Shown here: piece after piece, positions 3,001-30,247 of the stretch
Layout: every line of letters begins with the position of its first letter
Numbering within the stretch: position 1 is the stretch's first letter
IMG/VR virus record: IMGVR_UViG_3300030116_003700
Span: 1 to 34,810 of that record
Reading direction: 5' to 3' (one strand)
Length of the DNA stretch: 34,810 nucleotides
DNA from: a virus
The notes under the pieces: model-generated
Database searches by the model: none
The model's input: the letters and a program-made list of their open reading frames with translations, nothing else
What the model was told of the DNA's origin: nothing
Position numbers and translations under genes: made by a program

Positions 3001-3855
3001 TGCGTTTACTTGAATATCATTAGTATGTAGGTTATCTGTTAAACTTACATTATATGTATAAGGACTTCTATCTACTATTACCCTACCTGCTTTTGGTTGT
3101 GTTAAAAAAACTGAAGTATCTTCTTCACTTCTATCACTATTACTTTCATAAAATTTTCTTTTTAATTGATATTTAGTTAAGTAATTTAATTGTCCAGCAT
3201 TATTTAATCTTTCATCATAAAAGTAAAAATGAGGCTTTTGTACTACTGAATATAAATCAAATCTTTTATCTGAATCTCCTGCACCGTTACCTAATAAACC
3301 ATATGCTACTGCTACTACTTCTGTATCATTAGTTTTATGTGGTCCTTTATAAATAGCAAATTTTGTATTTACAGGTAAAGTATGACTAACTTTAGGACTA
3401 AACTCAATACCATCATTTGCAGAATCAAATTGTACTTGTTCTGTAATTTTAGCAATATGTAATTTATTTTTGTGCGTGTTTAAATTAGCAACAGTAAAAT
3501 CTTCAGTAGAATATATTACAACAAAATAATCATAGTTAGCATCCATTGTTAATGTAGTACCAGCAGGCAATTTTAATCTATATTCTGTTGTATTCTGTGC
3601 ATTAGATAATACATCTAACTGTGTTGTATTAAATGGTAATATTCTATTAAAAACACTAGCACCATCATCATGTATAGAATGTGTTGAATTATCCGTTCTA
3701 ATTTCATAAAATGTTAAATTAGTCAATTCATCAAGAGTCAAGTTCTCATTAACAATAACAGGGTTAATAGATGTTTTAGTTTGACTGTTTCCAAATGTTC
3801 CATCTGCACTACTGTAAGCAGTTTGTCCAGCATTTAATACATATGTATCAGTCAT
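1..3855 (-). CDS. Giant distal tail protein, C-terminus beyond the window
   Basis: The frame opens at ATG 3855 and stays open to base 1, giving 1285 codons without a stop, so the C-terminus lies outside the window. The start is well placed: GAGGAGG lies about 7 bases upstream, and the ATG shares one base with the stop of the LamG gene (TAATG). The protein is rich in Asn, Ser, Thr and Tyr with many short beta-type stretches, and no signal peptide or membrane segment was seen. Around residues 640-670 it contains VVTGRDNIHKLLGP, and residues 694-708 carry a beta motif also found in two other tail genes. Size, composition and position after tape measure and distal tail genes suggest a tail tip, baseplate hub or fibre protein. 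The function is inferred from context; I do not recognise a specific family. Confidence 0.8.
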   Translation of the reverse strand, partial: MTDTYVLNAGQTAYSSADGTFGNSQTKTSINPVIVNENLTLDELTNLTFYEIRTDNSTHSIHDDGASVFNRILPFNTTQLDVLSNAQNTTEYRLKLPAGTTLTMDANYDYFVVIYSTEDFTVANLNTHKNKLHIAKITEQVQFDSANDGIEFSPKVSHTLPVNTKFAIYKGPHKTNDTEVVAVAYGLLGNGAGDSDKRFDLYSVVQKPHFYFYDERLNNAGQLNYLTKYQLKRKFYESNSDRSEEDTSVFLTQPKAGRVIVDRSPYTYNVSLTDNLHTNDIQVNAVGNTANEINQSSFAVYSDTYTFQHHNWINCFRNGFRAQNNQTSSNDTKGPRRYIEYVSSPEKANIFPHLLDLNVFTTISKSGTYSEIRFADPNKIIDKKLKEYDSLKVRNILFEEQFTNEADAQLPGLAYYKTANVIEIRGLNSKQNLGFISGEPNYLVNASSGTNVEIIRIGNYHYKIANVSDIGSLTLDVSTQLFTQDITVSHYRHINDTSWSSGGLQDINNINGVEYYRKKWSSITGNLLVSFNLNANYTSSIELILKDREYSGNRITLSTINEDRKLIVPNNLPTSLYQPSLTNSYLDYFSGSFIVDKIIFNGSVEYMEDYIEDGQLKYVVTGRDNIHKLLGPVVNKNYLHSKDYVYSSKSPIQQVAASDVKLTDTPIGSTTATIFIGADYTGSNQDWLGNKTALYRSDGVLIGVVKNIVMSTITFYEPTRIDYVRTTHGFIYTNTNSDYLISGTSISGSTDGAKNILNASGKGIFFTGGLNTSGEELVYSAATTGDFSSGYDINDIRGISTDNPFMFRLANETTSSVTYFNQPTVSSLTNYDVVNISKNSTSNTTITIAPVSPFILARVDSNSNDTAHSNTLGMYFLNTQSLSNGGLLQLVHNKTYTAENSKKKHIIWKHENDNYGVPIYRYFDFGKGGKSSLWKTRITGNSALGFRSYNSTYANSKGSASGFARAFKFKEGFTSGNSPTIISPLLECPSIFDTTTETAFNLRYFPPDNRGTMPVLGSNWADYHMYDSSKSITQPVYSKLRQDSNGSVVEMSGSTSSTGDTNALGEITHTVGSYNYNFILPKHTYFSGMSNKNIDNFVRQMRNKLDIYTPSCTQYHIYSPCDIYSDSINNENHIGYSNSNYSFGDFNIFLEGKNSSKSNNITHNHWQGNVSKQIKFNSDYNHFPIVSASITPSSMKRFTLGRLIECGFDMWFNPIDVENPSYEPVEFDFFVNALVTRNAANSHYYNYRFSSTPYKMFRMAEKTSVRVLEDVSIDEEYITVDEGDW
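1732..1776 (-). repeat. Shared tail beta motif, copy in giant tail protein
   Basis: Residues 694-708 read LYRSDGVLIGVVKNI. They align without gaps to LFDANGVFMGTIKNI in the neighbouring LamG protein and LYTNAGKFIGKVYGF in the tail tube protein. Conserved positions are Leu, an aromatic, Gly6, Gly10 and Val/Ile12. It probably forms a small beta hairpin inside a tail-decorating domain. Confidence 0.45.
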
Positions 3856-5018
3856 TAATCTTCCTCCTCAAATGTTAAGTATAATAATAAATTTCTATGT
3901 TGTGGTAATAAAGTGTATAAAGAACTAAAATCACTATAATAAGAATTAGTAATAGCCATTTCATGTATTTCACCCATAAATTGAGTTTTTCTATCTTCAG
4001 GATAACTTAAAGATGCGTCTTTACCAATAAATATATTATCAGTACCAAAAGTAAAATTAGTTTTAATAAAGTTAGGAGATAATCTATCTGTATGAGTTGC
4101 CGATGCTATTTCAACATTATTTAAAAATAAACTTATTTTACCTGTTGCGTCATCAAAACTTAATGCTAAATGATAAAGACCTTCTAAATAAGGTGCTTCT
4201 AACAAAGGCTTCTTGTATATTTTACCATCAGTAGCATCATATTGTGCTTTTGTATATCCTGAAACGGTAGTATCAATAGTAAAATTAAAGTTTGTTATAT
4301 TTTTTATTGTACCCATAAATACACCATTAGCGTCAAATAACTCCATTTGTTCATGCACTAATTGTTTATGTCCTGAATCTGTAAATTGTATATCTCCTGT
4401 AAATAACATTTGTGTAGAACTTGATGGTGAAACGGTTGTATCAACCATATTTTGAATTGAACCTAAATATTTAATATCATCTGTAAGTGTATAATTAGTA
4501 TCTCTTGCTCTAATAATAGTTGGACTGTTTAATGTAAATGGGTTAGTAATAGTCATTTTACAACAAATTCTATATTCAGCAGGCTGGTTATCATTATGTT
4601 TAGTTGTATTTTCTAAATACAATTCTAATTTTTGTGATTTAAATAACATCATTTTATGATTTGAACCTGTACCATCCCAATTAAATCTATGATTTAAAGG
4701 TAAATATTTTTCACTTTGATAAGCCCCTTCTCCTGAACTATGTCCAATATATGTTGCTTGCTTATATGCAGGCATAGTTTTTTGTGAAGTTAAAATACCA
4801 TCAGGGTGAGCAGGGCTATTATTGGTTGTTCTTGTACCTGCCCCGTTAATATCATAAGGAGTAAAAATATATTCCATTGTAAAATCTCCCTCATGTTCCC
4901 AAATACCATAAGGCGTTTCAGCAATATTTTTACTATAATTTATTGTAATATTTCCATCGCACATAACAGGAAATTGGATTGCCTTTTGGCTTCCCATGTA
5001 TGCGTTATAATTACTCAA
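3855..5018 (-). CDS. LamG/lectin-like tail protein, probable receptor binding
   Basis: I place the start at TTG 5018 (387 residues). GGTGA at 5024-5028 lies exactly 5 bases upstream; a GTG at 5027 would sit inside that Shine-Dalgarno. The C-terminal part, about residues 275-365, has the run expected of a LamG/concanavalin-like beta sandwich: GLYHLALSFDDATGKISLFL, then NVEIAS, then IFIGKD, then a GEIHEMAI strand. An N-terminal beta region (about 40-60 and 120-180) may form another sandwich. Residues 227-241 carry the shared tail beta motif. Such domains bind glycans or surface proteins, so host attachment at the tail tip is likely. It lies between a distal tail protein and the giant tail protein. 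The fold call is by eye. Confidence 0.72.
   Translation of the reverse strand: MSNYNAYMGSQKAIQFPVMCDGNITINYSKNIAETPYGIWEHEGDFTMEYIFTPYDINGAGTRTTNNSPAHPDGILTSQKTMPAYKQATYIGHSSGEGAYQSEKYLPLNHRFNWDGTGSNHKMMLFKSQKLELYLENTTKHNDNQPAEYRICCKMTITNPFTLNSPTIIRARDTNYTLTDDIKYLGSIQNMVDTTVSPSSSTQMLFTGDIQFTDSGHKQLVHEQMELFDANGVFMGTIKNITNFNFTIDTTVSGYTKAQYDATDGKIYKKPLLEAPYLEGLYHLALSFDDATGKISLFLNNVEIASATHTDRLSPNFIKTNFTFGTDNIFIGKDASLSYPEDRKTQFMGEIHEMAITNSYYSDFSSLYTLLPQHRNLLLYLTFEEED
4296..4340 (-). repeat. Shared tail beta motif, copy in LamG protein
   Basis: Residues 227-241, LFDANGVFMGTIKNI, match the motif in the giant tail protein at nine of fifteen positions (L, N/D-G-V, G, K-N-I and similar aliphatics). 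The upstream flank is also alike, with a (I/L)F(I/T)G strand about 20 residues before. Confidence 0.45.
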
Positions 5019-16940: not shown

Positions 16941-18269
16941 TCATTGAAGGTTAGTAATCTTTCCTTGTCCTTTAACGAATGTGCAAACTACTTCACCGAT
17001 GGTTCTATACATTCCTCGGTTTCCAAGTTTGCCAACACCGAATGGGTCGCCTGAATCAATACCACCTTCAAAGTATTCGGTTGGTTTTAATGTAGCAAAG
17101 TGCAAGTGGTCTGTATCTAAGATAAAGATGTCGCTTAGTCCACTACCTGAACCTGTACTTCCCATTTCCTTTGTTGGGATAATTGGAATATCATGGTATG
17201 TAGCAACCTTAAATCCAACTTCTCTACCTTTAACACCTTTAATACCGTTAACAGTAGGCATAACTTCTGCTCTACCCATATATCGCTCTTGTGCTTGTAG
17301 TAATTCACCCAATGCTTGAATAGTATCATATCCAGTTAGAATAACCTTTGGAGATGCACCACGAATTTGAAGTTCTCTTAATGCAGTATTAAGAAGATTC
17401 AAAGTCAAGTTTCTACGAGAAGCATATGAAGCACCAAAGTCAATGAAAGCATCTAGCCATTCATTTCCAGCAGCACTTCTATCATGTCCGTAAATGTGGT
17501 CATATAGACCCAAATAAGCATTATCATCATATCCACCTGTGAATAATCCTGCACCGCTAGTAGTGTCCATAGCCTGTAATTCAGCCTTTGAAGAAATAAT
17601 CTTATACAAAGACATTAAATTGTTTTGAATACCTGTTAATGGTGCACCTGAATTATCCATTGATTCAAGAGGCATAAGTAGCATGTGGTTCATGGCTTCA
17701 GCGTGTGAAACACCAACTTCTTCTCTATAAGCAGCCATAATATCGCCAATACCATCATCAAGTTTCGCCATAGCAGCAGCAAGTTCTGAAATTTCAAACT
17801 GATGTGCAATAGTTTTTGGCGAACAGAATAGGGTAGAATAAACAGGCTTAATTGGGCTAAATGCTTCATTAGTGTTAGTAGTAAAAGCAGCGTTTTCTTC
17901 AACACCACCAATTAGTCCTTCTGTTTGTCCTGATTCATCAGTTCCACTACCAGTAGACCAAACATCACCAGCACCACCCAATGCTCTTTCTGTTAAAACT
18001 CTCCAACCGCTAGAAGACCATGGCTTCTTAGGTAGCATAGCAAATGCATTAATTTCACGGTTTAACATAGACCAAACTTTCTGTCCGTAAATGAGGTTAT
18101 GTAGTGCTTTCGTTCCTGTGTTCAAACTTCCATCAGCGTTAGTTACATCATGTGTTCCATGAATACCCGAAGTCAAACCACTAGCCTTTAATAGACTACT
18201 AAATTGACCTGTACCGTAGGTTGCTCTTTCTAAATCTTCAATTGTTCTAATTTGATTAATTCCTGACAT
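16941..18269 (-). CDS. Major capsid protein, HK97-type fold
   Basis: 442 residues directly after the protease-scaffold gene. The C-terminal half has features common in HK97-fold capsid proteins: a helix with KVILTGYDTIQALGELLQAQ (the spine and A-domain region), then EVGFKVATYHDIPIIPTKEM, a late IFILDTDHLHFATLKP strand, and a closing GMYRTIGEVVCTFVKGQGKI strand. A helix around residues 160-190 holds EISELAAAMAKLDDG. The first 100 residues may include an N-arm. It builds the icosahedral head on the scaffold, and the S78-type protease encoded next door likely matures the prohead. GGTGA at 18276-18280 lies 6 bases before ATG 18269. Base composition is richer in G and C than in the tail genes, as expected for a highly expressed gene. 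Confidence 0.88.
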   Translation of the reverse strand: MSGINQIRTIEDLERATYGTGQFSSLLKASGLTSGIHGTHDVTNADGSLNTGTKALHNLIYGQKVWSMLNREINAFAMLPKKPWSSSGWRVLTERALGGAGDVWSTGSGTDESGQTEGLIGGVEENAAFTTNTNEAFSPIKPVYSTLFCSPKTIAHQFEISELAAAMAKLDDGIGDIMAAYREEVGVSHAEAMNHMLLMPLESMDNSGAPLTGIQNNLMSLYKIISSKAELQAMDTTSGAGLFTGGYDDNAYLGLYDHIYGHDRSAAGNEWLDAFIDFGASYASRRNLTLNLLNTALRELQIRGASPKVILTGYDTIQALGELLQAQERYMGRAEVMPTVNGIKGVKGREVGFKVATYHDIPIIPTKEMGSTGSGSGLSDIFILDTDHLHFATLKPTEYFEGGIDSGDPFGVGKLGNRGMYRTIGEVVCTFVKGQGKITNLQ

Positions 18270-18295: not shown

Positions 18296-18318
18296 CTTTG
18301 AGTGTTAAACTCTCAAAG
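18296..18318 (-). other. RNA hairpin upstream of the major capsid gene
   Basis: CTTTGAG pairs perfectly with CTCAAAG around a 9-base loop. It overlaps the stop of the protease-scaffold gene and lies 26 bases before ATG 18269. A short GGGA/TCCC stem lies just upstream. No T run follows, so it is not a clear terminator; it might protect a processed capsid transcript. Confidence 0.35.
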
Positions 18319-19032
18319 GGAAGAAACCTCCCTAACGAGTTCGTTAACTTGTTCCCAAGATAGTTCGTGAATGTTGTTCATCTTAAGAACAATATCTTCG
18401 GGAATAGCAGGTGCGGCATTAGCCGCTTCTACTTGCTTTGCAATAACTGAATTGTTGCTTTCTAAGGACTTTCGGAGTTCAGCAAACTCATTCTTTAGTG
18501 CGCTAACTTCAGCACTTGCATCATAATTCTCCTTTGCGATTGCATCGGATTCAGCCTTCAATTCTGCTTGATAACGAGCCTCAAAATTCTCCTTAACAAC
18601 ATCATACATTCTAGCCTCTTCTTTTTCAGCCTTAAATTGAGCATAAGCCTTAGCAAGGTTTTCCTCGCTCAAGTCCAAAGTAGGAACATCTTGTGCCTTT
18701 CTTGCTAGATACTCACTATATTCCGAACCATATCTACCTGTTAAAGCACCATCAATTCGGGTTTGACCTGTTGGGTTATCTCCGTAGACAATTGATTCAG
18801 CCTTTGCTTCCTCGTCTACTTCCATCTTTTCATCTTCATCTTCTGCTTTGTATGACATGGATTCTTCATCATCCATTTTATCTTTCATAGCCATGTTTTC
18901 TTCATCATCACCCATAGCCATCATTTGTTCATCATCGCTTTCTTCCTTCGCAATAGTTGAATTAACCTGTTCTCTCAATTGAGAAACAATGCCGTTAAAT
19001 TCTTCCAATGCTTTATTAATTTCATCTGACAT
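18313..19032 (-). CDS. Nested in-frame scaffold protein
   Basis: Within the protease gene, ATG 19032 (Met189) is preceded by AAAAAAGGTGATAAAATG, with GGTGA 4 bases upstream, the same signal that starts the capsid and tail tube genes. It would yield 239 residues starting MSDEINKALEEFN, exactly at the junction between protease and scaffold. A nested scaffold inside a protease gene is known from lambda (C and Nu3). The product would be the abundant scaffold, and the full-length protein the minor protease-scaffold fusion. The evidence is the ribosome binding site plus domain boundary; protein data are absent. Confidence 0.6.
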   Translation of the reverse strand: MSDEINKALEEFNGIVSQLREQVNSTIAKEESDDEQMMAMGDDEENMAMKDKMDDEESMSYKAEDEDEKMEVDEEAKAESIVYGDNPTGQTRIDGALTGRYGSEYSEYLARKAQDVPTLDLSEENLAKAYAQFKAEKEEARMYDVVKENFEARYQAELKAESDAIAKENYDASAEVSALKNEFAELRKSLESNNSVIAKQVEAANAAPAIPEDIVLKMNNIHELSWEQVNELVREVSSL

Positions 19033-19596
19033 TTTATCACCTTTTTTGTTTTCGTAATTTTTTTGTTCTTTAATTATTTCAAATTTTGCTTCGGGGTTTA
19101 TTCCCTCTTCGCATATAGTTACTTCGTGGAGTTCTAATTTATCTATTTCTTTATATGTACCAATATCAGGGTCATATCTATTTGCCTTACTCATGGCTTG
19201 ACCACCAATACTGAAAGAGCGCAATTTGCCTCTTCTAATATCTCTTGAAACTTCTTTTGCTTTTTCAATGTCGTTTCTCATTTTAATAACAACAAAGAAA
19301 CCTGTATCATCACAACCTGTTTTTAATACATTACCTTCGGAATCAGTCCAATTATCAATAACTTCTCCGACTTGAACATTAGAATGGGTAATCATAACAT
19401 TTCTATAATCACCCTTCATAAAATCAGCAGATGCTTCACGGATTGCTTCTAATGTAATAAGGTCATTTTGCTTATCTACAACATCTACTGAAGCATATCC
19501 AGCAATAATTAGTGGTTCGTTTTTACTACCCTTTAGGATAATTAATTCCGAACCATCAGTATAACTACTACCTTTCATAGTAGGAACTAGCATCAT
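18313..19596 (-). CDS. Prohead protease (S78-type) with C-terminal scaffold
   Basis: ATG 19596 is chosen (427 residues) because GGTGA at 19602-19606 lies 5 bases upstream; earlier ATG and GTG codons overlap that signal. Residues about 15-175 fit the HK97 prohead protease: GYASVDVVDKQNDL (33-46), MITHSNVQVGEV with probable catalytic His71, SFSIGG with probable Ser129, and LELHEVTIC with Glu158. From about residue 189 the sequence becomes acidic and Met/Glu/Asp-rich and then helical coiled-coil, ending VNELVREVSSL, as scaffolds do. The protease cleaves scaffold and capsid arms and itself during head maturation. An internal start at 19032 probably makes the scaffold alone. The capsid gene follows after 43 bases. 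Confidence 0.88.
   Translation of the reverse strand: MMLVPTMKGSSYTDGSELIILKGSKNEPLIIAGYASVDVVDKQNDLITLEAIREASADFMKGDYRNVMITHSNVQVGEVIDNWTDSEGNVLKTGCDDTGFFVVIKMRNDIEKAKEVSRDIRRGKLRSFSIGGQAMSKANRYDPDIGTYKEIDKLELHEVTICEEGINPEAKFEIIKEQKNYENKKGDKMSDEINKALEEFNGIVSQLREQVNSTIAKEESDDEQMMAMGDDEENMAMKDKMDDEESMSYKAEDEDEKMEVDEEAKAESIVYGDNPTGQTRIDGALTGRYGSEYSEYLARKAQDVPTLDLSEENLAKAYAQFKAEKEEARMYDVVKENFEARYQAELKAESDAIAKENYDASAEVSALKNEFAELRKSLESNNSVIAKQVEAANAAPAIPEDIVLKMNNIHELSWEQVNELVREVSSL
19037..19041 (-). promoter_or_regulatory. Internal GGTGA ribosome binding site for the scaffold
   Basis: GGTGATAAAATG inside the protease gene repeats, base for base, the signal before the tail tube gene (10766). In the coding frame it encodes G-D-K-M. 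Confidence 0.6.
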
Positions 19597-19626
19597 GCTC
19601 ATCACCCTTATATTTGTTTGTACAAC

Positions 19627-19643: not shown

Positions 19644-22133
19644 TTATTCAGTATATTTTAATGATTTATTTTCATCTTGTTCTATATTCCACATTCCTTC
19701 ATCACTATCTTTGTCTGTGGGTTTAGTTTCATACCCTGTCCACGCAATCCATGTTTTTTGACCGTCTATTGGTACTACTCTAAAATGAAATTTACCTGAA
19801 TACAATTTACCATCTAATAAATATTCATGGTAGCCATCTCTTTGAGAACCTAATTTAATTGTACCTTTATCTAATAATTTATTTTTATCTATTTCATTTT
19901 CTAACTGTGCTCTATATTTACCTGCTTTACCAAATAACTCATACAAATCTTCAGTTTCACTTTGTTCTATTCTCCAAGACATTTCTTTATCTTTATAATT
20001 AAATATAAAATTTAAATCACCATCATCTCTTTTCCAAACTTCATATGTATTTTCATCTACTTTAATAATAGGTTCTTCATCTTTAACTAGTACCTTTTCA
20101 TCATAACTAAAAGAATCTCTATTTTTATTATAGTTAATTCCATAAGCAGGTCCTTTTTCCATAATCATTCTAGACAAACTTTTTTCTATATTTTTAGTAT
20201 CAGAAAATAATCTATTAATAATACTAGGTAAAGCCTTTTTAATTTTATCAACTAATTGATTTGATTTTAATTCACCATCAATTAATTGTTGTTGAATATA
20301 AGTATATAATATACCATTATCTTTAATATATGCTTGTCTTAATTCATCTTTCCATATATCTATATCAATAATAGCATTTTTAGACATTAAGTTATTTTCG
20401 TAAAATCCTGATAAAACAAAACCATCTGTTTCAATAGATGTTTTTAATATAGTATCACCATGAACACCATCTGATAATTTGTACCCTTTTTCTAATGCCT
20501 CAATAGCATAATCTTTTGCTGACTTTTTATTATCTTTAGATAAAAATTCTAATGTAATAATTTTTTCTGCTTCTGTAACTTCAGGCTTTTCAATAAACTT
20601 TGCACTATAAATTGAAAAACCATTAGCAGTTTTCTTTACTTCGTCTACCTTTACTCGGATTATTGAACCATCTTTTACTTCAGTTTTAGTATTAAGTGCT
20701 TTACCAACACTTAGATATTTTTTACCATCTACTTCTACTAATGGTTTATAATCTTCATTATCAACAGGTCCAGCACCTAAACTATAACTAAATGTACCAT
20801 TTTTATTTTCTCTTGTAGATAATACAATTAAATCTAAGTCAACAAACTTTTTCCATTTAATCCACTTTGGATTTTTCTTTTTACCTACAACATAAGATGA
20901 TTTAGCATCTTTAATTACCACACCTTCTGATGTAGGATTTTTCATAATTGTTTTAGAATATTCTTCTATTTCTTCTAATGAATCAGCAAATCTTGTATTA
21001 CTTTTATTTGGAAATCTAAGATATTCATCTGAATGTGCTGAAAAATTATTCATTAATCTAGTTAGTCTATCTTCTAACTTTTCATTCCAAACATCTTCTC
21101 CTTCTAATTTCATTATATCAAACACATTTACTTTTAATTCATACTGTTTATCACCTTTTTCTGAATTAATAAAAGCAATTGTATCTGCTCTATGTAATGG
21201 TTCGTCTTGATTATATAATGTAACTTCTCCATCTAAAATACATTTAGGAAACTTTTCATTATCTAATATCTTAATTTGTTTATCAAACTTAGATGTAATA
21301 TCTCTATTATTAAATGAATAAACTTTGATAGTATCTGTTTTATGAATTTGTATTCTCATACCATCATATTTTTCTTGTACTACCCATTCACCTGTAAAAC
21401 CTTTTAATTCTTTAATATCATCTATTTCAAAAATTCTATACATTGGTTTATTTGGTACAATAAAATTATTTTTAGTACCTTTATCTTCTTTTAATACTCT
21501 TTTAGAATCAATTAATTCATTCCATTCTTGAGGTGTATGTTCAGTAGTATACACCTCGTAAAGTAATTCTCTTGCTGCTGGTAATTTAGTTTTTAATCTT
21601 TTAATGTCAACATCTTCACCATAGTTAGTTTTAACCCAATCATATATTTCTCTATCTGTTAAATCTAAACCAACATAACCTTCTGTAAAATTATCAGGAA
21701 TATCTACTTTATCCTCCCAAGTATCTAATGCCCCTCTACCTGCTCTATATGCCCAATGTAAAAACATGGCTAATACAGTTTTATCATTAACTAGTTTTTC
21801 AGTAATCTTTTCACCGAATTTTTTTCTAAATGGGTCATTAGTTAAAGATGAATCATTCTTTAAATTTTTCATAGTTTCATAAACTCTTTTTGCTTTAGCA
21901 CCTTTGGGGTCTTTTACTGCATCGGAATATAATAAATTTTCTTCCATTTTATCTCTTAGAATATCTCCTAAATCAGAAGGAGAATCCCATCTACCTCTAA
22001 GAGTTTCTAATGTAGATTCCCATTCATCTCTATAATCTTTAGGTCTTTCTCTTGCGCTAAGATAAGATATTCTAACCTTATTATATAGTTCTCTTATATC
22101 CCTTGAAGTAGGGTCAACCCTTTCAGTAGGCAA
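19644..22133 (-). CDS. ATP-dependent DNA ligase with extra N- and C-terminal domains
   Basis: 829 residues from TTG 22133, which follows GGTGA (22139-22143) by 5 bases. The nucleotidyltransferase core is clear: motif I EKYDGMR with AMP-accepting Lys255, ILDGE (299-303), VFDIMK (337-342), EGVVIKD (403-409), and KWIKWKK (423-429). An OB-fold follows to about residue 510. The first 225 residues form a helical domain that only loosely resembles a ligase DNA-binding domain. About 300 residues extend past the OB-fold; residues 697-800 (VWKRDDGDLNF, later LLDGKLYSGKFHFRVV and WIAWTGY) loosely resemble the LigD 3'-phosphoesterase barrel but lack its usual His residues. Encoded between portal and protease, it may seal nicks or ends during packaging, or travel in the virion. 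Confidence 0.88.
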   Translation of the reverse strand: MPTERVDPTSRDIRELYNKVRISYLSARERPKDYRDEWESTLETLRGRWDSPSDLGDILRDKMEENLLYSDAVKDPKGAKAKRVYETMKNLKNDSSLTNDPFRKKFGEKITEKLVNDKTVLAMFLHWAYRAGRGALDTWEDKVDIPDNFTEGYVGLDLTDREIYDWVKTNYGEDVDIKRLKTKLPAARELLYEVYTTEHTPQEWNELIDSKRVLKEDKGTKNNFIVPNKPMYRIFEIDDIKELKGFTGEWVVQEKYDGMRIQIHKTDTIKVYSFNNRDITSKFDKQIKILDNEKFPKCILDGEVTLYNQDEPLHRADTIAFINSEKGDKQYELKVNVFDIMKLEGEDVWNEKLEDRLTRLMNNFSAHSDEYLRFPNKSNTRFADSLEEIEEYSKTIMKNPTSEGVVIKDAKSSYVVGKKKNPKWIKWKKFVDLDLIVLSTRENKNGTFSYSLGAGPVDNEDYKPLVEVDGKKYLSVGKALNTKTEVKDGSIIRVKVDEVKKTANGFSIYSAKFIEKPEVTEAEKIITLEFLSKDNKKSAKDYAIEALEKGYKLSDGVHGDTILKTSIETDGFVLSGFYENNLMSKNAIIDIDIWKDELRQAYIKDNGILYTYIQQQLIDGELKSNQLVDKIKKALPSIINRLFSDTKNIEKSLSRMIMEKGPAYGINYNKNRDSFSYDEKVLVKDEEPIIKVDENTYEVWKRDDGDLNFIFNYKDKEMSWRIEQSETEDLYELFGKAGKYRAQLENEIDKNKLLDKGTIKLGSQRDGYHEYLLDGKLYSGKFHFRVVPIDGQKTWIAWTGYETKPTDKDSDEGMWNIEQDENKSLKYTE

Positions 22134-22144: not shown

Positions 22145-22840
22145 TCATTGGAGTTCATTCTTTCTATCTTGAGGCATCATTACCTTATTTGACGGCACTC
22201 TTGTAGTATTCATAAACTTCTCTAATGCTTTTGCTGCTTCTTCAAGAGTAGAGAGTAATGCTTTTGCATCACTTGTGGACATATCGGCTTTCTTTTCTGA
22301 TAGTGCTTTAAAATCACTACCTTCTAATTTTCCATCACCATCAACATCTAACTTCTTTTGTTTTGGTGATAAGCCTTTTCTTTCATCTTCATCAGCCATC
22401 ATTGAACCAGCAGCGACTCTTGGTGCTAACATACCTAAACCATATGCAAGTTTTTCTGCTTCAAATTCTTGTTGTGCTTCATCAACAACTGCATCAATAT
22501 CTTCTTTACTTAATGATGAACCTGTAAAATCTCTTGAATTATTATTGTATGGATTAATAGCCTTGTAAACTTCAGGCTTTGTTTGTGAAATAGCCATACC
22601 TACAATTGTTTTATTACCTAATGTAGAAGCATCTGTTTCATTCTTAGTACCAACATCTACCTTCTTTGATGTAGGTTTCTTAGTAATTGGTGCTTCACTA
22701 AAATTAATATGACTACCTAAATGATTATTAATTTGATTAATCATTTCTACTAATTGTGTTATTACTGCGGTTGTCTTATCCTCACTTCTAGAATCTGTAC
22801 CAAAGTGCATTGTTGAATCTTGTTTATCTGTCCATTCCAT
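22145..22840 (-). CDS. EF-hand-containing protein of the head cluster
   Basis: ATG 22840 is preferred (231 residues) since GGGGAG lies 8 bases upstream; GTG 22849 would touch that site. Residues 165-176 (DVDGDGKLEGSD) form an EF-hand loop with Asp at positions 1, 3 and 5, Gly at 6, a Leu at 8 and Asp instead of Glu at 12, preceded by GLSPKQKK and followed by FKALSEKK. That fits one calcium-binding loop. The N-terminal part is polar and low in structure; residues 110-135 and 187-212 are helical. Single EF-hand-like loops occur in some phage virion proteins, where calcium may steady assembly. A role in the head is inferred from position. Confidence 0.65.
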   Translation of the reverse strand: MEWTDKQDSTMHFGTDSRSEDKTTAVITQLVEMINQINNHLGSHINFSEAPITKKPTSKKVDVGTKNETDASTLGNKTIVGMAISQTKPEVYKAINPYNNNSRDFTGSSLSKEDIDAVVDEAQQEFEAEKLAYGLGMLAPRVAAGSMMADEDERKGLSPKQKKLDVDGDGKLEGSDFKALSEKKADMSTSDAKALLSTLEEAAKALEKFMNTTRVPSNKVMMPQDRKNELQ

Positions 22841-22841
22841 T

Positions 22842-23075
22842 TTACTCACTCCCCATCTTAACTACTAATTCGTCAATTTCTGACCAATCCATTTTAGCAA
22901 TTCTATCATTAGTAATATCTACTTCAGGATTACCATTAATAGAAGGTCTAACCCCATCTACCTTTACTAATCCTGATTTCATAACGAGATTATCTGCATT
23001 ATATACGGTTCTTTCTAAGACCTTTACTCGGTCAACTAATTCTTTTAACAATAATGTTAGTTCTTCATCTTTCAT
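22842..23075 (-). CDS. Small coiled-coil protein
   Basis: 77 residues. The N-terminal helix (LTLLLKELVDRVKVLERTVY) has a heptad-like leucine pattern, so a short coiled-coil oligomer is likely; the rest is polar and acidic at the end. CAGGAG lies about 10 bases before ATG 23075, and the start overlaps the upstream stop by ATGA. It abuts the EF-hand gene. No family recognised. Confidence 0.6.
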   Translation of the reverse strand: MKDEELTLLLKELVDRVKVLERTVYNADNLVMKSGLVKVDGVRPSINGNPEVDITNDRIAKMDWSEIDELVVKMGSE

Positions 23076-25648
23076 TTTTCATCTACTCCTGCTTTTGGAA
23101 ATATTAATTTGCGAAGTTCATCGTATAATCTTTCGTAGTCCTTACGCAATTTGGTAGCCAACTTGACTACTTTAAGGTTTTTATCTTCTAGTTTAATAAC
23201 CTTTTTACCTAATTGTTTATCACCCTTTACTACACCTAGCGATTTTAATACCTTAATAACATCTGCTAACTTAAGGAAATCATGTCCAAAGTATTCTGTT
23301 GGGTCGGCAACATTTAGGATTGTTTTTAATTTCTTCTTTTGAGTTTTATTTAGGGATTCAAGAATAAGCCCTGTATCTTCTTTGACTATAATATCATCTG
23401 ATTCACCTAAGTAATCTAGTAAATCTCCAAGTGATTTTTTAGTATCTTTAGAAGCCTCTTCATAATATGGGAATCTTGTATATTTAGTTCTATTAATCAT
23501 TTTGACCTTTCCTTTCTTATCACGGATTATACCCATATTATTTCTTTGAGGTTCTTTGACCTCTTCTTTCTTCCAACCAACCTTTCGCCAAATTTCATCA
23601 TCTGAAAACTTTCTTGTACCATCTTCATTTTTAATATCCTTTAATCTTTCAGTTTCCTTATCAATAAAGTTTCTTAATTTTTCTCCTCTTGCTGGTCCTT
23701 TTGGTTCTTCTTCTTCTCTTTTACTTCTAAATTTCTTATTACCTTTCTTATCAAAGTAAAAGTCGCCACCTACTGTTGATGATTTAATTCCTCTTCTTGT
23801 AGGTTTAAATTCTTCTTCTTCTTTAGGACCTTTTGCTGGTTCAATAAATCTAACTTCTTCATCTGTTTCTTCTACTTGTCTATCTCTAAGTAATTCAGTT
23901 AATAGGTTTCTATTACCTTTACCTGTTCTACTAAACTTCATATGTGCTTTTAGTAAATAATAAAATATAGTTTTACCTTGTACTTTTTCATCACCTTGAC
24001 TTCTGATACTTTTTTCAATATCTTCAAGAGCCTTTTTATTTTTACCTTTGAATTTTCTACTAATAGATTCATCATTCATAATTCTAAACATCTGCATAAT
24101 AACTTCATTTCTATTATCTGCTGATATTTTCTTAATAGCATTATTGTATCTTCTTTGTATTCCTACAACTGATACTTTACCTGTTTGAGAATCTAATACT
24201 ACACCTTCTTTGACCGCTTTAACTAAAGCAGGTAAAATAGTTTGTTCTAGTTTAATATAATCTTGTAATGCTGATTGTCCTTCTTTTGGTTTAATACCTG
24301 CTAAACCATCAGTAAATCCTTGAAGCCAATAAGCAAAGTCAATAGGAGGATTGTCATATTGTTGTGTTTTAGCATGTTCCTCCCAAACTTTTTCATAAAT
24401 AATTGATAATGTATTTGTAGGTGGTAAAAACATAGGTGGATTACCCATTCTATTTACTTTAATTTCTAATTCAGTTTTCTTTTCTTCATTAGCCTTTTCA
24501 TATTCTTGTAAAGAAGAACCTACTAATTTTAGTATTTCATTAACAATAGGTTTTAATGTTCCTGCACCTGCTGAAAACCATGAGTTATCTTGTAAATCTA
24601 CTTTAACAAATCTAGGTTGTAAAAATTCAGAACTTTGTTTTTTAGTTAATGCAGGACTTAATCTATCGTTCTTACCCCATATAGGAGTAATTCTTAGTGT
24701 TCTTGTAACATTAGACATTTGACCTATTTTATTACCTTCTGATTTTGCTAATAGAGAAGTTTTGGTTCTACCTGCTACTGCTTCTGTTCTTTTCTTTGCT
24801 GCTTCAGCCTCTTCAGAATCTAATGCGTTTTTAATAGCAGTTAATTTTTTTGTTACTTCTTCTACATTTACATCTTTATAAGTAGGTAATTTTTCTTCAA
24901 TAAATTTAGTAATTCTTTTAGACATTAAATCTTTACCTGTTGTTGAAGAACCAATTAACTGTACTAAATCATATGTAATTTGAGCAGGACCTGATTGTAA
25001 ATAATCACTCCATAAAGCATCTGCTTCAGAAGGCTTAATTTCTCTTCTTAGTGCTTCTCTAAGTTTTCTTTCAGCCTCTTCTTTTTTCTTTCTTTTTTCT
25101 GCTCTTTCTTTACCTTCAGCAATTTCAGCCTGTCTTTCTTTACCCCTTCTTTTAATTTTACGCTGTTGTTCATCTCTAATTAGTTTATCACCAAATGCAT
25201 AAAATTGTTCTAGTCTTACTGCATCTGAAGTTCCTGAAAAAGTATCGGGGCTAATATCAAAAGGTTTATCTTGAAAAGGTTCTGCTGGTTCAGGTTGTCC
25301 TAAATCAAATCTTTTTCTTCTATCTTTTTCTCTATCTTCAGGTTCATTAGGATTTTGATATTCTCTACCAGCCGCTTCTCTTTGTTCTGATGTTCTACCT
25401 GTATCGGGAAATATGATATTTTCCATTTTTTCATCAGGGTATTCTTCTGCAAGAATATCCATAATAATAGTAGATAATAGTTTTTCTCTACCACCTTCAT
25501 TCCAAATTTTCTTGGCTTTTTTATCAATCCTTCTCCAATCCTTAGCAGTAAAATTAATTGCTTTTAGTATATCTTCATAATTAGAACTCACGGCTTTCGC
25601 TAAGAGTTCATCTAAATAATCCTCAATTAAAGCCGTTGATGTAATCAT
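23072..25648 (-). CDS. 858-residue charged protein of unknown function
   Basis: ATG 25648 is chosen, with AAGGA about 9 bases upstream; TTG 25654 lies closer to that site and is less likely. It is hydrophilic and mostly helical. Residues about 150-205 are a strongly basic helix-rich stretch (KIKRRGKERQAEIAEGKERA) that could be coiled-coil or bind DNA. Residues about 600-700 are low-complexity with alternating Glu and Lys/Arg blocks. A region near 320-400 has more mixed structure (TLRITPIWGKNDRLSP). There are no membrane segments and no catalytic motif I recognise. It sits between portal and ligase. Possible roles include an internal or injected head protein or packaging factor, but nothing seen decides this. 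Confidence 0.75.
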   Translation of the reverse strand: MITSTALIEDYLDELLAKAVSSNYEDILKAINFTAKDWRRIDKKAKKIWNEGGREKLLSTIIMDILAEEYPDEKMENIIFPDTGRTSEQREAAGREYQNPNEPEDREKDRRKRFDLGQPEPAEPFQDKPFDISPDTFSGTSDAVRLEQFYAFGDKLIRDEQQRKIKRRGKERQAEIAEGKERAEKRKKKEEAERKLREALRREIKPSEADALWSDYLQSGPAQITYDLVQLIGSSTTGKDLMSKRITKFIEEKLPTYKDVNVEEVTKKLTAIKNALDSEEAEAAKKRTEAVAGRTKTSLLAKSEGNKIGQMSNVTRTLRITPIWGKNDRLSPALTKKQSSEFLQPRFVKVDLQDNSWFSAGAGTLKPIVNEILKLVGSSLQEYEKANEEKKTELEIKVNRMGNPPMFLPPTNTLSIIYEKVWEEHAKTQQYDNPPIDFAYWLQGFTDGLAGIKPKEGQSALQDYIKLEQTILPALVKAVKEGVVLDSQTGKVSVVGIQRRYNNAIKKISADNRNEVIMQMFRIMNDESISRKFKGKNKKALEDIEKSIRSQGDEKVQGKTIFYYLLKAHMKFSRTGKGNRNLLTELLRDRQVEETDEEVRFIEPAKGPKEEEEFKPTRRGIKSSTVGGDFYFDKKGNKKFRSKREEEEPKGPARGEKLRNFIDKETERLKDIKNEDGTRKFSDDEIWRKVGWKKEEVKEPQRNNMGIIRDKKGKVKMINRTKYTRFPYYEEASKDTKKSLGDLLDYLGESDDIIVKEDTGLILESLNKTQKKKLKTILNVADPTEYFGHDFLKLADVIKVLKSLGVVKGDKQLGKKVIKLEDKNLKVVKLATKLRKDYERLYDELRKLIFPKAGVDEK

Positions 25649-25650
25649 GT

Positions 25651-25875
25651 TCAAACTTCCTTCATCTTTTTACTTACTCTCGGTCCACCTACAATAACCC
25701 CTGGAACTGATTGTGCATTAATATCTTTTGCTTCAGGTGGGGTTTCAGGTACACCAGCAGGAACAGTATTTACTGTTTGCTTTTGCACAGGTTCGGGTGT
25801 GTTCACTTTCTTTTGCATACTTTCTATTTCTTTCTTTGCTGCTTGTAGTCTTCTGTTAATTATATCTTTATTCAT
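25651..25875 (-). CDS. Short helical protein after the portal gene
   Basis: ATG 25875 gives 74 residues starting MNKDIINRRLQAAKKEI. An upstream ATG at 25965 would overlap the portal gene by 89 bases and has no comparable signal, while AAGGAGA lies about 10 bases before 25875, in the portal's last codons. A short basic helix is followed by a Pro/Val-rich, flexible tail (VPAGVPETPPEAKD). It could be a portal accessory or scaffold-like peptide. No family recognised. Confidence 0.55.
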   Translation of the reverse strand: MNKDIINRRLQAAKKEIESMQKKVNTPEPVQKQTVNTVPAGVPETPPEAKDINAQSVPGVIVGGPRVSKKMKEV

Positions 25876-25876
25876 T

Positions 25877-27484
25877 TTAACCAACTCTCCTTTCTGTTCT
25901 TCTATCAACATTATTATTTGCTGCTTCTTGAGGTAGACCTGTATTTCTTTTAGGAGGTCCAACACTCATTGATGGTTTATTTCTACTTGCAAATGCTTCT
26001 TCTTGCATTTGTCCTAATTGACTTGCATCAATATCTGTTCCTGCATATGGGTCAGTTTTTAATGGTTCATCACTACCGCCTTTACCTTTTGGTTGTTCTT
26101 TAGGTTCAGGTGGTGGTTTAGAGAATATAAAGTTTCCATCTTCATCCATATCTACTTCAAATCCTAAGTTCTTAATTTGTGTAGCCATATTAATTTCAAT
26201 TTCTCTCTTTCTTAATTCAGCCACATTATCTTCTTCTTCGGAACGGAGTAATGTAAGTTTCCAATCTGTAATACCAAATTCTCCTACTAAATATGGGAAT
26301 AGGTATAGATTATATACATTTTGAGCCATCTCTACACTTCTATTAGTTACAAGAATCTGCATACCTTCGTTATTCAATCCACCACTTGTTGATGAATCCG
26401 CCATAAAGATATTACTTACTCCATAGAATGCTGAAATTCTAGTTCTCAAATCTTCTTTAACATTGATATAATCCATTTCCTTTAATGTATTCATAAACTG
26501 AATCCACTCAACAGAACCTTTCTGTCCTCCTTCAGTTTCAATACCCATAATAGGAATATAATGTGGGTCTTTTTCTAACTTCTCTTTTACACCTTTCCAA
26601 TACTTAACAAGTGATTCCATGTTATTTGTTTGTACTGCAAGAATACCTCTTGGTGTTCTAGCCTTTGTATAAGATGTATTAATGTATGTTTCCATAGCAG
26701 TTAAAGTAGTAATATGACTCCATAATGTTAAGATAGGAGGGAAGCCATATAATCTACTTGGATTGTATTTACTAATATGAATAACTTCTCCTTTAATGAA
26801 ATATTGGTCCTCTCCATGCACTCTATTAATATAATGAACAGGGTGTAATTTAGAATTACATTCAGGACAATTTCCTGGTGTATCACTATATACTTCTCTA
26901 TGAGTTAAACAAGTATAATGTGCACACCCTTTATCTCCTTCTTGGTCTACATCAATATACATAGTTAATGGGTCGCCTCTATAAATCTCTTTAATTCTAT
27001 GCATAGCCATATTACCTTCTTCATCTAAGTAATATTCTTTAACTAAAATTAAATAAGCATCATCAGCGATATTTAAATCAGTTTCTAATTCTTTTAGTAC
27101 ATCAATAAATCTTTGTTCTGATTCATTTACATACCCATCAAAGAAATTATCAGCATAATGTTTTTGTTGCATAGATGGTTTTCTAAAACTTACACTACCA
27201 CAGTTAGCACACTTCTCTACTTCTTTATCATATTCAGTACCACAATTATTACACTTCTTTACAAAAGCCTTCTCCCAAACATATCCTCTTCTAAATATTT
27301 CAGTCTTTAATTGTGTAATACAAGTTCTAACAACAGTAGATGAATTGGCTACATGGTATAATACAGGTCCAATTACATGTTGTGCATGACGCTTTTCTTG
27401 TATACCTAAATTATAAATATCTTTATCATGCGGTGTAGGAGTTTTTCTCCTAATAAATTTTCCTAAATAATCTCTTAATCCCAT
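25877..27484 (-). CDS. Portal protein with two zinc-ribbon motifs
   Basis: 535 residues after the terminase, in the usual portal position. The core shows portal-like features: an early HVANSSTVVRTCITQLKTEI helix, GEVIHISKYNPSRLYGFPPI (the wing/clip region with G-x-P-P), then TAMETYINTSY, later DLRTRISAFYGVSNIF, and a Pro/Gly/Gln-rich tail. The portal ring is the DNA gate of the head and binds the terminase. Two inserts are unusual: Cys78-x2-Cys81-x10-Cys92-x2-Cys95, and Cys192-x2-His195-x10-Cys206-x2-Cys209. Both have the same spacing and look like zinc ribbons. ATG 27484 overlaps the stop of the endonuclease-like gene by one base, with GGTG about 7 bases upstream. Portal identity is confident; zinc binding is inferred. 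Confidence 0.85.
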   Translation of the reverse strand: MGLRDYLGKFIRRKTPTPHDKDIYNLGIQEKRHAQHVIGPVLYHVANSSTVVRTCITQLKTEIFRRGYVWEKAFVKKCNNCGTEYDKEVEKCANCGSVSFRKPSMQQKHYADNFFDGYVNESEQRFIDVLKELETDLNIADDAYLILVKEYYLDEEGNMAMHRIKEIYRGDPLTMYIDVDQEGDKGCAHYTCLTHREVYSDTPGNCPECNSKLHPVHYINRVHGEDQYFIKGEVIHISKYNPSRLYGFPPILTLWSHITTLTAMETYINTSYTKARTPRGILAVQTNNMESLVKYWKGVKEKLEKDPHYIPIMGIETEGGQKGSVEWIQFMNTLKEMDYINVKEDLRTRISAFYGVSNIFMADSSTSGGLNNEGMQILVTNRSVEMAQNVYNLYLFPYLVGEFGITDWKLTLLRSEEEDNVAELRKREIEINMATQIKNLGFEVDMDEDGNFIFSKPPPEPKEQPKGKGGSDEPLKTDPYAGTDIDASQLGQMQEEAFASRNKPSMSVGPPKRNTGLPQEAANNNVDRRTERRVG

Positions 27485-28866
27485 TATACTACACCACTTT
27501 CTATTTCATCCATCAAAGTCATTTTACAATTATCGTGATATTTAACTACTACTTCAGGGTCAATACCATATTTTTCAAATTCTGTTGGGTTTCTAGCATC
27601 TTTCCAATTTTCATATTTCATTAATTTAAAAATCTCTTGAAGTCTAGGTTTTGCCCAATCAGCCTTCTTGTGTTGTTGTTTGATTCTTATAGCCTCTAAT
27701 AATAGTTTCCCTTGTGCTTTCTTCATTCTTAGGTGAGGCATACACTTATCTAAGATACTTCCTATATCTCCTTGACTGTAAAAATTAAGTCTATGTTGAC
27801 TTCTATTATTCTCTCCTACCTTTTGGTCTAAATGTAATCTACCACATTTTAGTTCTGCTTCAAGTTCTTGGAAAAATGCTTTGCCTCTATTACCTGTTGC
27901 AATCATACCTATTCTTGGTGCATAATTAGAATCCATTGTAATGTAGCCATCAGAATCAATAAAACCAGCAACATAGGAATAAAGGTCTTTCTTAATTAAA
28001 TCTTTTACTAGATAATATTGATTATCAATCTTAGTAGCCTGAGCCTTCTTTAACATTTTAGAAATTGATTGAGGAGTAGATATTTTATTATATCCTTCAG
28101 GTAATCTAGCGTGTACTTCATTAGATGTTAAACCTGGACTTTTACAAATAATATCTACCACATGTGATTCAATAATTTCTTTCTTTGATTTTCTAATTGC
28201 TTGGTGTGGAATATTTTTAATTATCTGTCTTATTTCTTTTTTACAGTCTTTAATAATATTATTATGATTAGTGTATTCAGCACCATAATTTAGTTCTGAT
28301 TTTTCTAATTCACTTTCCCACATCTTACATAGTAATTCTACAATTTGTTCTCTTTGTTTACCATCTTTAATTGAATGTAATTTTTGTATTTTAGATACAT
28401 TAAGAGTCATAGATTTTAATGGGGATTGATATGGTTTTAACCAATATACTGAATCTATACATTTTTGTACATAGTGTTCATATGCTGTAATTAAGTGGTC
28501 AATACCTTTTGTTAACTTTAATTTAGATTCTCCCTTAAATTTTCTTCTCATATCTCTAAGTTCTTTAACAATATCAGGAATATTTTTATCTACAATAATA
28601 GGTTCAATAGGGAATGTTTGAATATAATCTGTTGCTTCAGTTAAATTAATATTCATATTTTTAGAAATGTCTTTTAAAATATCTATTTCATTTCCATATT
28701 GGTTTGATAACCATGAATTAAATTCTTTTTTGAATTGTTCAGCAAGTTTTTCTTTAGGTACTTTTTCTTGTTCATCTAAAACTTTCTTTTGGTCTTGAAT
28801 TCTTTTAACTTCTTGAAGATTTTCTTCTACTTCTTCAATATTAATATCAGCCTTAATTAATACCAT
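27484..28866 (-). CDS. LAGLIDADG endonuclease-like protein with winged-helix domain
   Basis: ATG 28866 is chosen (460 residues); AGGAGGTGG lies 8 bases upstream, whereas GTG 28875 overlaps that site. Residues 298-309 (YVAGFIDSDGYI) form a LAGLIDADG motif with the acidic catalytic position, followed by strands and helices (RIGMIATGNRGKAFFQELEA, then CGRLHLDQ, later HRLNFYSQGDI and LRMKKAQGKLLLEAI) of a single-motif domain, which would act as a dimer. Residues about 228-290 (IICKSPGLTSNEVHARL) look like a winged helix. The first 220 residues are helical and unrecognised. Homing endonucleases cut specific DNA to spread genes. Here the gene is tightly overlapped by its neighbours and may be settled in the operon. 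Confidence 0.82.
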   Translation of the reverse strand: MVLIKADINIEEVEENLQEVKRIQDQKKVLDEQEKVPKEKLAEQFKKEFNSWLSNQYGNEIDILKDISKNMNINLTEATDYIQTFPIEPIIVDKNIPDIVKELRDMRRKFKGESKLKLTKGIDHLITAYEHYVQKCIDSVYWLKPYQSPLKSMTLNVSKIQKLHSIKDGKQREQIVELLCKMWESELEKSELNYGAEYTNHNNIIKDCKKEIRQIIKNIPHQAIRKSKKEIIESHVVDIICKSPGLTSNEVHARLPEGYNKISTPQSISKMLKKAQATKIDNQYYLVKDLIKKDLYSYVAGFIDSDGYITMDSNYAPRIGMIATGNRGKAFFQELEAELKCGRLHLDQKVGENNRSQHRLNFYSQGDIGSILDKCMPHLRMKKAQGKLLLEAIRIKQQHKKADWAKPRLQEIFKLMKYENWKDARNPTEFEKYGIDPEVVVKYHDNCKMTLMDEIESGVV

Positions 28867-30247
28867 AAATTCCACCTCCTATGTTTTGGGGAGTAGGTGA
28901 GGGGTTAAAAAGACTACTCCCATCAATATCTATAAAAGTATCAGAAAATTGTTTTGTAGCATAGTTAGCCAATGCTAATGCAATAACTATATCATCATGT
29001 GCGCCTACACCCTCAATTTTACCATTAGCATTAATACCAAAAGCACCTAATTCTTGTTCAATTAACTGTGTTACTCCTCTTGATGTTTCGTCTTTCATAG
29101 GTAATACTAACTTATGGTTATCAATATTCATTTGAAGATTTAGGATAATTTCTTCTTTCTTTTTTCTACTCATAGTAAATTCTCTAACAGGGAAATCTGA
29201 AATATTTTTAAGTTCCATAGCAAATGCTTTAGCAAATGTATTAGTTTCAATCATTACTATTTCAGGTCTATATCTTCTACATAACTCCATGATATGTTGT
29301 ATATGTTCTCTAAAATCTAGACCCTTTGCTCTAAACATATGAACAACTTGTTTATTCATATCATCATCTACTTCTATAACCATCATTACTGTATAGTCGC
29401 CATTTGCTGATATAGCAGGGTCATAACCAATATAATATCTATACCCTTCTCTTGCTGAAGCATGTAATCTAGCATTTCTATCTTTACACTCATTAATATG
29501 GTTAGGGTCAAATAACATTGTATTTGTACTAATCGGAATACAAAGATATTCTCTTGTAAACTTCATAGAACCTATTTCCATTTTTCTTTCTTCTAATTTT
29601 TCTAAGTTCCATCTATTACCCCAAAGTGCTGAACCATCTTGTTTAATTGCTGGATAGCGTTGAACATCATATGCAGGATTTTCTTCTAATTGTGCAAATA
29701 TATCTGTATATGTAAATGGTGTACCTACCATTCTAAGTGCTGCTGTATGGTGAAGTGTAGGAATCATATCTCCCCAAAACCAATCTGTTACTCTTTGAAT
29801 ACCTGTCATACTAAACTCTTTCAAAGGGTCGTCAATAATAATTTCTTGAGGGTGTAATCCTCTAATCTGTGAACCAACTGAACGCTCTAATATTTCATTA
29901 CCGTTAGTTAAACGCATAGCCCCAACTGCCCAACCGCCTCTAGGTTTAAATTTCTTTAACTGTGGTATATTAGTAAACATTCTATCTATATCTTTCATGT
30001 GTACCATTGTTTGTTTATGGTTAGATGAAATGTATAACATTTGATATGGTGGTTCTTGAAAACATAATTGATAAACACACCATGAATGAAAGAAAACAGA
30101 TTTTCCGTGGTCACGACTACAAATAATAACTGTTCTATCTGTACTTTGTGTAAAGTCTAACCACTCTTGATGAAAATCAGCCAATTCATAACCTAATACT
30201 TTTTCAAAAAAATATTTAAAATTTCCTTTGGACATCTTCAAGTCCAT
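28853..30247 (-). CDS. terL: Terminase large subunit
   Basis: 464 residues from ATG 30247. The ATPase shows Walker A SRDHGKS (44-50), Walker B EIIIDD (135-140) and a coupling motif GTPFTY (175-180). The nuclease domain has IGYDPAISANGDYT with Asp276, IVMIETNTFAKAF with Glu334, and AHDDIVIAL with Asp418/Asp419, the metal-binding acids of the RNase H-like fold. It is the packaging motor: it docks on the portal, pumps DNA and cuts it at the head-full or cos point. The C-terminus overlaps the endonuclease-like gene by 14 bases. The start is not certain: no Shine-Dalgarno precedes ATG 30247, and GGTGA at 30276-30280 would instead favour an in-frame ATT at 30271, adding 8 residues. Confidence 0.93.
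   Translation of the reverse strand: MDLKMSKGNFKYFFEKVLGYELADFHQEWLDFTQSTDRTVIICSRDHGKSVFFHSWCVYQLCFQEPPYQMLYISSNHKQTMVHMKDIDRMFTNIPQLKKFKPRGGWAVGAMRLTNGNEILERSVGSQIRGLHPQEIIIDDPLKEFSMTGIQRVTDWFWGDMIPTLHHTAALRMVGTPFTYTDIFAQLEENPAYDVQRYPAIKQDGSALWGNRWNLEKLEERKMEIGSMKFTREYLCIPISTNTMLFDPNHINECKDRNARLHASAREGYRYYIGYDPAISANGDYTVMMVIEVDDDMNKQVVHMFRAKGLDFREHIQHIMELCRRYRPEIVMIETNTFAKAFAMELKNISDFPVREFTMSRKKKEEIILNLQMNIDNHKLVLPMKDETSRGVTQLIEQELGAFGINANGKIEGVGAHDDIVIALALANYATKQFSDTFIDIDGSSLFNPSPTPQNIGGGIYGIN
28872..28880 (-). promoter_or_regulatory. AGGAGGTGG ribosome binding site inside the terminase gene
   Basis: The strongest Shine-Dalgarno seen in the window. It lies 8 bases (from AGGAGG) before ATG 28866. 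In the terminase frame the same bases help encode the GGGIYGIN C-terminus. Confidence 0.65.

Follow-up and report, generated by a model that had tools for sequence, protein, structure and literature searches.

Why would a virus encode a DNA ligase among the genes that build its head? The question is raised by an ATP-dependent DNA ligase of 829 aa with a TTG start, whose gene occupies positions 19644..22133 of the window (the whole stretch of 34,810 nucleotides analysed here, which is the first 34.8 kb of the 61-kb IMG/VR record IMGVR_UViG_3300030116_003700) and, like every other window feature located below, lies on the minus strand. The record is a genome fragment and does not contain PolB. 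The nearest named relatives of the window's portal are the portals of HCTV-5 and HVTV-1, haloviruses of the Druskaviridae (~30% identity), and most longer relatives of the virus contain two family B DNA polymerase matches as well as a replication ligase on the strand opposite to that of the structural ligase. As these traits agree with the gene modules described for magroviruses, which infect Marine Group II archaea (PMC10768690, PMC12999244), the window virus is placed as a magrovirus-type archaeal tailed virus (order Magrovirales). Published work describes magroviruses as ubiquitous and as infecting Poseidoniales of the surface ocean. The left end of the window (1-3858) is a single open frame of ~1289 codons that runs off the end of the record and is missed unless open-ended frames are listed; the possibility that the first 3.9 kb are non-coding was thus ruled out.

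The original prediction located the ligase between the portal and the protease rather than in a replication region, and the annotated neighbourhood agrees with this. The next gene downstream encodes a prohead protease of the S78 family (18313..19605; Pfam PF04586, 1.6e-10; phrog_23555, 8.4e-18), followed by a major capsid protein of the HK97 fold, SU10-like (16941..18269; Pfam PF17236, 2.4e-7; phrog_24667, 1.8e-28). Upstream are a 234-aa protein with one EF-hand-type calcium loop (DVDGDGKLEGSDF; 22145..22849; Pfam EF-hand_7, 0.0015, below the cut-off), an 860-aa protein with no Pfam or PHROG family below E 0.01 (23072..25654), the last ~100 residues of which are kept in most related loci, and the portal protein (25877..27484; phrog_18178, 5.5e-73). 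The terminase large subunit (28853..30247; phrog_38, 1.8e-51) is separated from the portal by a 463-aa protein (27484-28875) assigned to HNH by PHROG (phrog_5046, 1.1e-5); this protein contains a LAGLIDADG-type motif, AGFIDSDGYI, and is found in the same place in most related loci.

This arrangement is a conserved rule in the magrovirus group. Among 163 distinct relatives, synteny was counted over same-strand ORFs of at least 90 aa downstream of the ligase, in loci with enough sequence. Of 153 loci, 151 have the prohead protease as the first of these ORFs, at a median gap of 34 nt; in 113 of 115 the major capsid protein is among the first four, and the portal is upstream in all 47 loci where this could be scored. 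The gene content of the portal-ligase interval varies across relatives, so the linkage of ligase, protease and major capsid protein is tighter than its surroundings. In the two exceptions (L041 and L058), an insertion of four to six small genes separates the ligase from the protease; the ligases of these two match that of the window from residue 213 only, the N-terminal domain being missing or diverged. Transfer of the structural ligase to a replication cluster was sought in the 163 relatives and not seen, the ligase of the replication module being a different protein. One paper notes in passing that a group A magrovirus region includes portions of the genes for an ATP-dependent ligase and a prohead protease (PMC7318539); in the literature checked, which lies outside two main magrovirus papers (2017 and 2025), no comment on their adjacency was found beyond this mention. 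As far as checked, the ligase architecture and gene linkage were previously unremarked.

The catalytic core of the protein was predicted to be complete, and it appears so in every relative aligned. Homologues align from about residue 3, which makes the assigned start and the numbering of Lys255 credible. The Pfam family DNA_ligase_A_M (PF01068) matches residues 243-428 (E 4e-28, 98.9 bits against a cut-off of 26.2), and the PHROG assignment is ATP-dependent DNA ligase (phrog_114, 1.4e-26); the score against NCBIfam TIGR00574 dnl1 is 99.3 bits, under its cut-off of 217.8. Based on Pfam, the alignment and VIA-align, the nucleotidyltransferase core with motifs I, III, IIIa, IV and V spans residues 226-430 (20844..21458), including the codon of the catalytic Lys255 in the motif EKYDGMR (21369..21371), and is followed by the OB-fold domain at residues 431-515 (20589..20843). 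In an alignment of 54 sequences, with relatives 42-78% identical to the window ligase, nine signature residues are identical throughout, namely K255, D257, G258 and R260 of motif I, E303 (III), F338 (IIIa), E403 (IV), and K426 and K428 (V). The AlphaFold2 model of the protein has a mean pLDDT of 81.8; its residues 219-536 align with human LIG1 by VIA-align at Z 22.2 over 296 residues, and similar scores (Z about 22 over model residues 216-536) are obtained with LIG1 and archaeal ligases. The canonical C-terminal motif VI (FPR..R.R.DK) is unrecognisable in the structural ligase and is present in the replication ligases, and so self-adenylation by the structural enzyme may be unusual.

Pairwise dN/dS between close pairs is ~0.02-0.24 across all four segments of the ligase, and all parts of the protein, extra domains included, are under purifying selection. 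The low dN/dS, the occurrence of a ligase relative in at least 490 IMG/VR stretches and the near-invariant synteny together argue that the gene is not a chance observation. No homologue was found in Druskaviridae or vir335, where HCTV-5 gave only a sub-threshold match of 13 bits, and named phage records gave no tblastn match. The only matches in cellular genomes are five contigs filed under metagenome-assembled genomes of Maricaulis sp. IN14 and Altibacter sp. EAC109 (L093-L097), which are probably misbinned magrovirus contigs.

Published accounts of magroviruses list 'an ATP-dependent DNA ligase' among the replication genes, and in long genomes this is a separate protein. Of the related viral records that reach 70 kb, 26 of 27 (12/12 and 14/15 in two sets) encode a ligase of ~505-537 aa on the strand opposite to the structural ligase. 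In the first set of 12 records its distance from PolB, where both genes could be placed, is ~9 kb, and it has a canonical DNA-binding domain (PF04675) and an obvious motif VI. Three clades are recovered in a maximum-likelihood tree of the core: structural-module ligases (16 rows; support 100/99), replication ligases (13 rows; 99/99) and bacterial LigD (100/97), the last of which excludes the structural ligases; the order among the three clades has no resolution in this tree. A recent duplication of the replication ligase was rejected as the origin of the structural one, given the separate clades and a stem of 2.4 changes per column. With a clade of its own and a separate ligase of ~510 aa in nearly every long record, the structural ligase represents an additional ligase dedicated to the head module. 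One record of 184,733 bases (G009) contains two structural-type and two replication-type ligases with the polymerase matches doubled, and is probably two joined virus genomes.

Compared with LIG1-type archaeal and eukaryotic ligases, including the ~510-aa magrovirus enzyme, the structural ligase shares the nucleotidyltransferase and OB core with motifs I, III, IIIa, IV and V, and possibly the N-terminal helical DNA-binding domain as well. It differs in its location in the head module, in ~310 extra C-terminal residues with a phosphoesterase (PE)-like fold, in lacking a sequence-recognisable PF04675 or motif VI, and in belonging to a clade of its own with a long stem. The predicted proportions, with about 225 mostly helical residues before the core and about 300 after the OB-fold, are borne out by the AlphaFold2 model, which gives ~310 for the latter. 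The proposal that both flanking regions are unusual extra domains is better supported for the C-terminal region, as the N-terminal one may be an ordinary ligase DNA-binding domain that has diverged.

The N-terminal domain (residues 1-225; 21459..22133) has ~12 helices according to the AlphaFold2 secondary structure and no significant Pfam, PDB-sequence or HH match; in particular, the PF04675 profile that matches the replication ligases does not match the structural ligase. An HH comparison with the DNA-binding domain of the replicative ligases was not significant, with motifs colinear: at low stringency FLHWAYR is paired with the FIRYWLR motif and EIYDWVKTNYG with the VKKxLAKxYG motif. In addition, a Foldseek comparison of the whole ligase aligned ~600 columns to archaeal ligases of 553 residues. 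These results hint that residues 1-225 may be a highly diverged ligase DNA-binding domain.

Beyond the OB-fold, the model contains a small conserved beta region with invariant D555, H558 and G559 and then a helical, winged-helix-like segment (together residues 516-690; 20064..20588), of which residues ~600-690 show a weak similarity to PadR-type and cullin winged helices (VIA Z 6-7). Residues 694-802 (19728..20054) are predicted to adopt the fold of the LigD 3'-phosphoesterase, in accordance with the original suggestion that residues 697-800 resemble that barrel without its histidines. When the C-terminal region was modelled alone, Foldseek matched these residues with probability 1.0 to 3n9b, 3p43, 3n9d, 5dmp, 2lj6 and 3p4h, and VIA-align gave Z 11.4 for 3p43 (rmsd 2.6 over 102 residues) and Z 9.6 for 3n9b, the next unrelated chain scoring 7.2. 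The relation is one of predicted fold, as sequence profiles do not detect it: an HH comparison with LigD PE was not significant and PF13298 gave no match. The metal ligands of the Pseudomonas PE are His42, His48 and Asp50 (PMC8656161); these have no counterpart in the viral domain, and the motif H.{5}H.D.R is absent from all 54 members, for which reason an active phosphoesterase was rejected. The domain instead has its own invariant residues (G762, Q764, G767, H769, E770, Y771, R785 and W795). With the catalytic His/His/Asp lost and other positions fixed, residues 694-802 have the appearance of a former phosphoesterase that now serves a different purpose.

The presence of a ligase core and a PE-fold domain in one polypeptide is shared with LigD, the enzyme of bacterial and archaeal NHEJ, and invites the explanation that the viral protein joins ends and circularises the injected linear genome. 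Mycobacteriophages Corndog and Omega, which circularise their genomes with a phage Ku and the host LigD, would be a precedent. The likeness is nevertheless partial, because the domains of the structural ligase are in the order LIG-PE, preceded by an N-terminal helical domain and with no polymerase domain found, the His/His/Asp residues required for PE catalysis are lost, and the core groups outside the LigD clade. Moreover, a search of 18 related viral records, fragments among them, found no Ku match, and an NHEJ system with Ku was rejected on this ground. End-joining is therefore regarded as improbable.

A less specialised explanation is that the enzyme is a ligase for general repair whose gene only happens to be in the structural operon: made late, it would clean nicks from cytoplasmic concatemers to keep the terminase from stalling, without ever being associated with the head. 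All ligase motifs tested are intact and a late operon would provide the right timing. Gene neighbourhood is no proof of head association, as enzymes of late operons can stay outside virions, and no capsid-targeting or MuF domain is recognisable in the structural ligase: there is no MuF or LPD Pfam match in the 829-aa protein and none among the families listed for its N-terminus, a weak LPD25 match being seen in two of 54 C-terminal members. However, the adjacency to protease and major capsid protein in 151 of 153 loci, despite gene turnover between portal and ligase, suggests more than hitch-hiking, and so do the extra domains, which are not seen in the replication ligase. The general repair explanation is accordingly considered somewhat unlikely.

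The fixed position of the ligase beside the capsid protease and capsid genes suggests instead a role in repairing viral DNA during packaging or on entry. The reading preferred here, to which about equal weight is given for and against, is that the protein is a predicted nick-sealing ATP-dependent ligase that belongs to the magrovirus head-assembly and packaging gene set and seals viral DNA at the head. The ligase would be made late, together with the protease and the capsid proteins; its N-terminal helical domain, and perhaps also the winged-helix-like segment, would grip duplex DNA, and the non-catalytic phosphoesterase barrel could be a docking module for a DNA end or for a protein. Sealing of nicks would then take place at the head while concatemers are matured and pumped in, or, with a different timing, inside the virion or just after ejection.

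A role at the head or in the virion is supported by analogy with several systems. Some tailed phages package nicked genomes, phage tf having localized ligatable nicks, and the nicks of phikF77 are reportedly repaired early in infection (PMC3517423). In HVTV-1, one of the nearest cultured relatives, the interval between portal and protease encodes a MuF-type protein and a 1313-aa Zeta-toxin/ADP-ribosyltransferase (ART) protein, of a MuF-linked class for which packaging and injection have been argued (PMC5512222). These polyvalent and MuF-linked effectors, HVTV-1 gp115 and HCTV-5 gp114 likewise place a large multidomain enzyme between portal and protease or major capsid protein; the magrovirus enzyme, a candidate virion protein, differs in being a DNA ligase in which no MuF, ParB, Zeta or ART domain was found. 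The halovirus 'zeta toxin' gp115 of HVTV-1 (L091:20105-24046) has an additional ADP-ribosyltransferase domain at its C-terminus (PF03496, 1.4e-8); the domain is not seen in its homologue HCTV-5 gp114. Finally, a virus-encoded DNA ligase was detected by mass spectrometry in virions of the algal virus PkV RF02 (PMC11953307). The magrovirus ligase may likewise be carried in the particle; the PkV RF02 enzyme, in contrast, is NAD-dependent, comes from an unrelated giant virus and has its encapsidation established by mass spectrometry.

The shared gene slot with HVTV-1 gp115 also allows the explanation that the protein is an injected effector that acts on host nucleic acid such as RNA or tRNA, in the place of the Druskaviridae Zeta toxin/ART, and a secondary Pfam match to RNA_ligase (PF09414, 1.5e-6, 28.9 bits) points in the same direction. 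This match is far below that of the DNA ligase model (98.9 bits), and the OB-fold and LIG1-like arrangement of the core argue for DNA as the substrate, so that an effector of this kind is very improbable. The stronger form of the head-associated reading, in which the ligase is located inside magrovirus heads, is delivered with the genome and seals nicks in packaged or injected DNA, with the dead PE barrel as a docking module, is put forward tentatively, as a possible but doubtful extension of a sealing role at the head.

Nearly all of the long genomes examined thus carry two ligases of different architecture and separate ancestry, one of which is locked in the head-gene cluster. The structural enzyme adds the combination of a ligase with an inactivated phosphoesterase to the catalogue of DNA-joining enzymes. 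To our knowledge, no virion-borne DNA ligase has been described for a tailed virus, and if the virion-borne reading is true, the magrovirus protein would be the first. Its conserved position raises the question of whether the DNA that magroviruses package is nicked, or whether they require a ligase at their portal or inside the particle.
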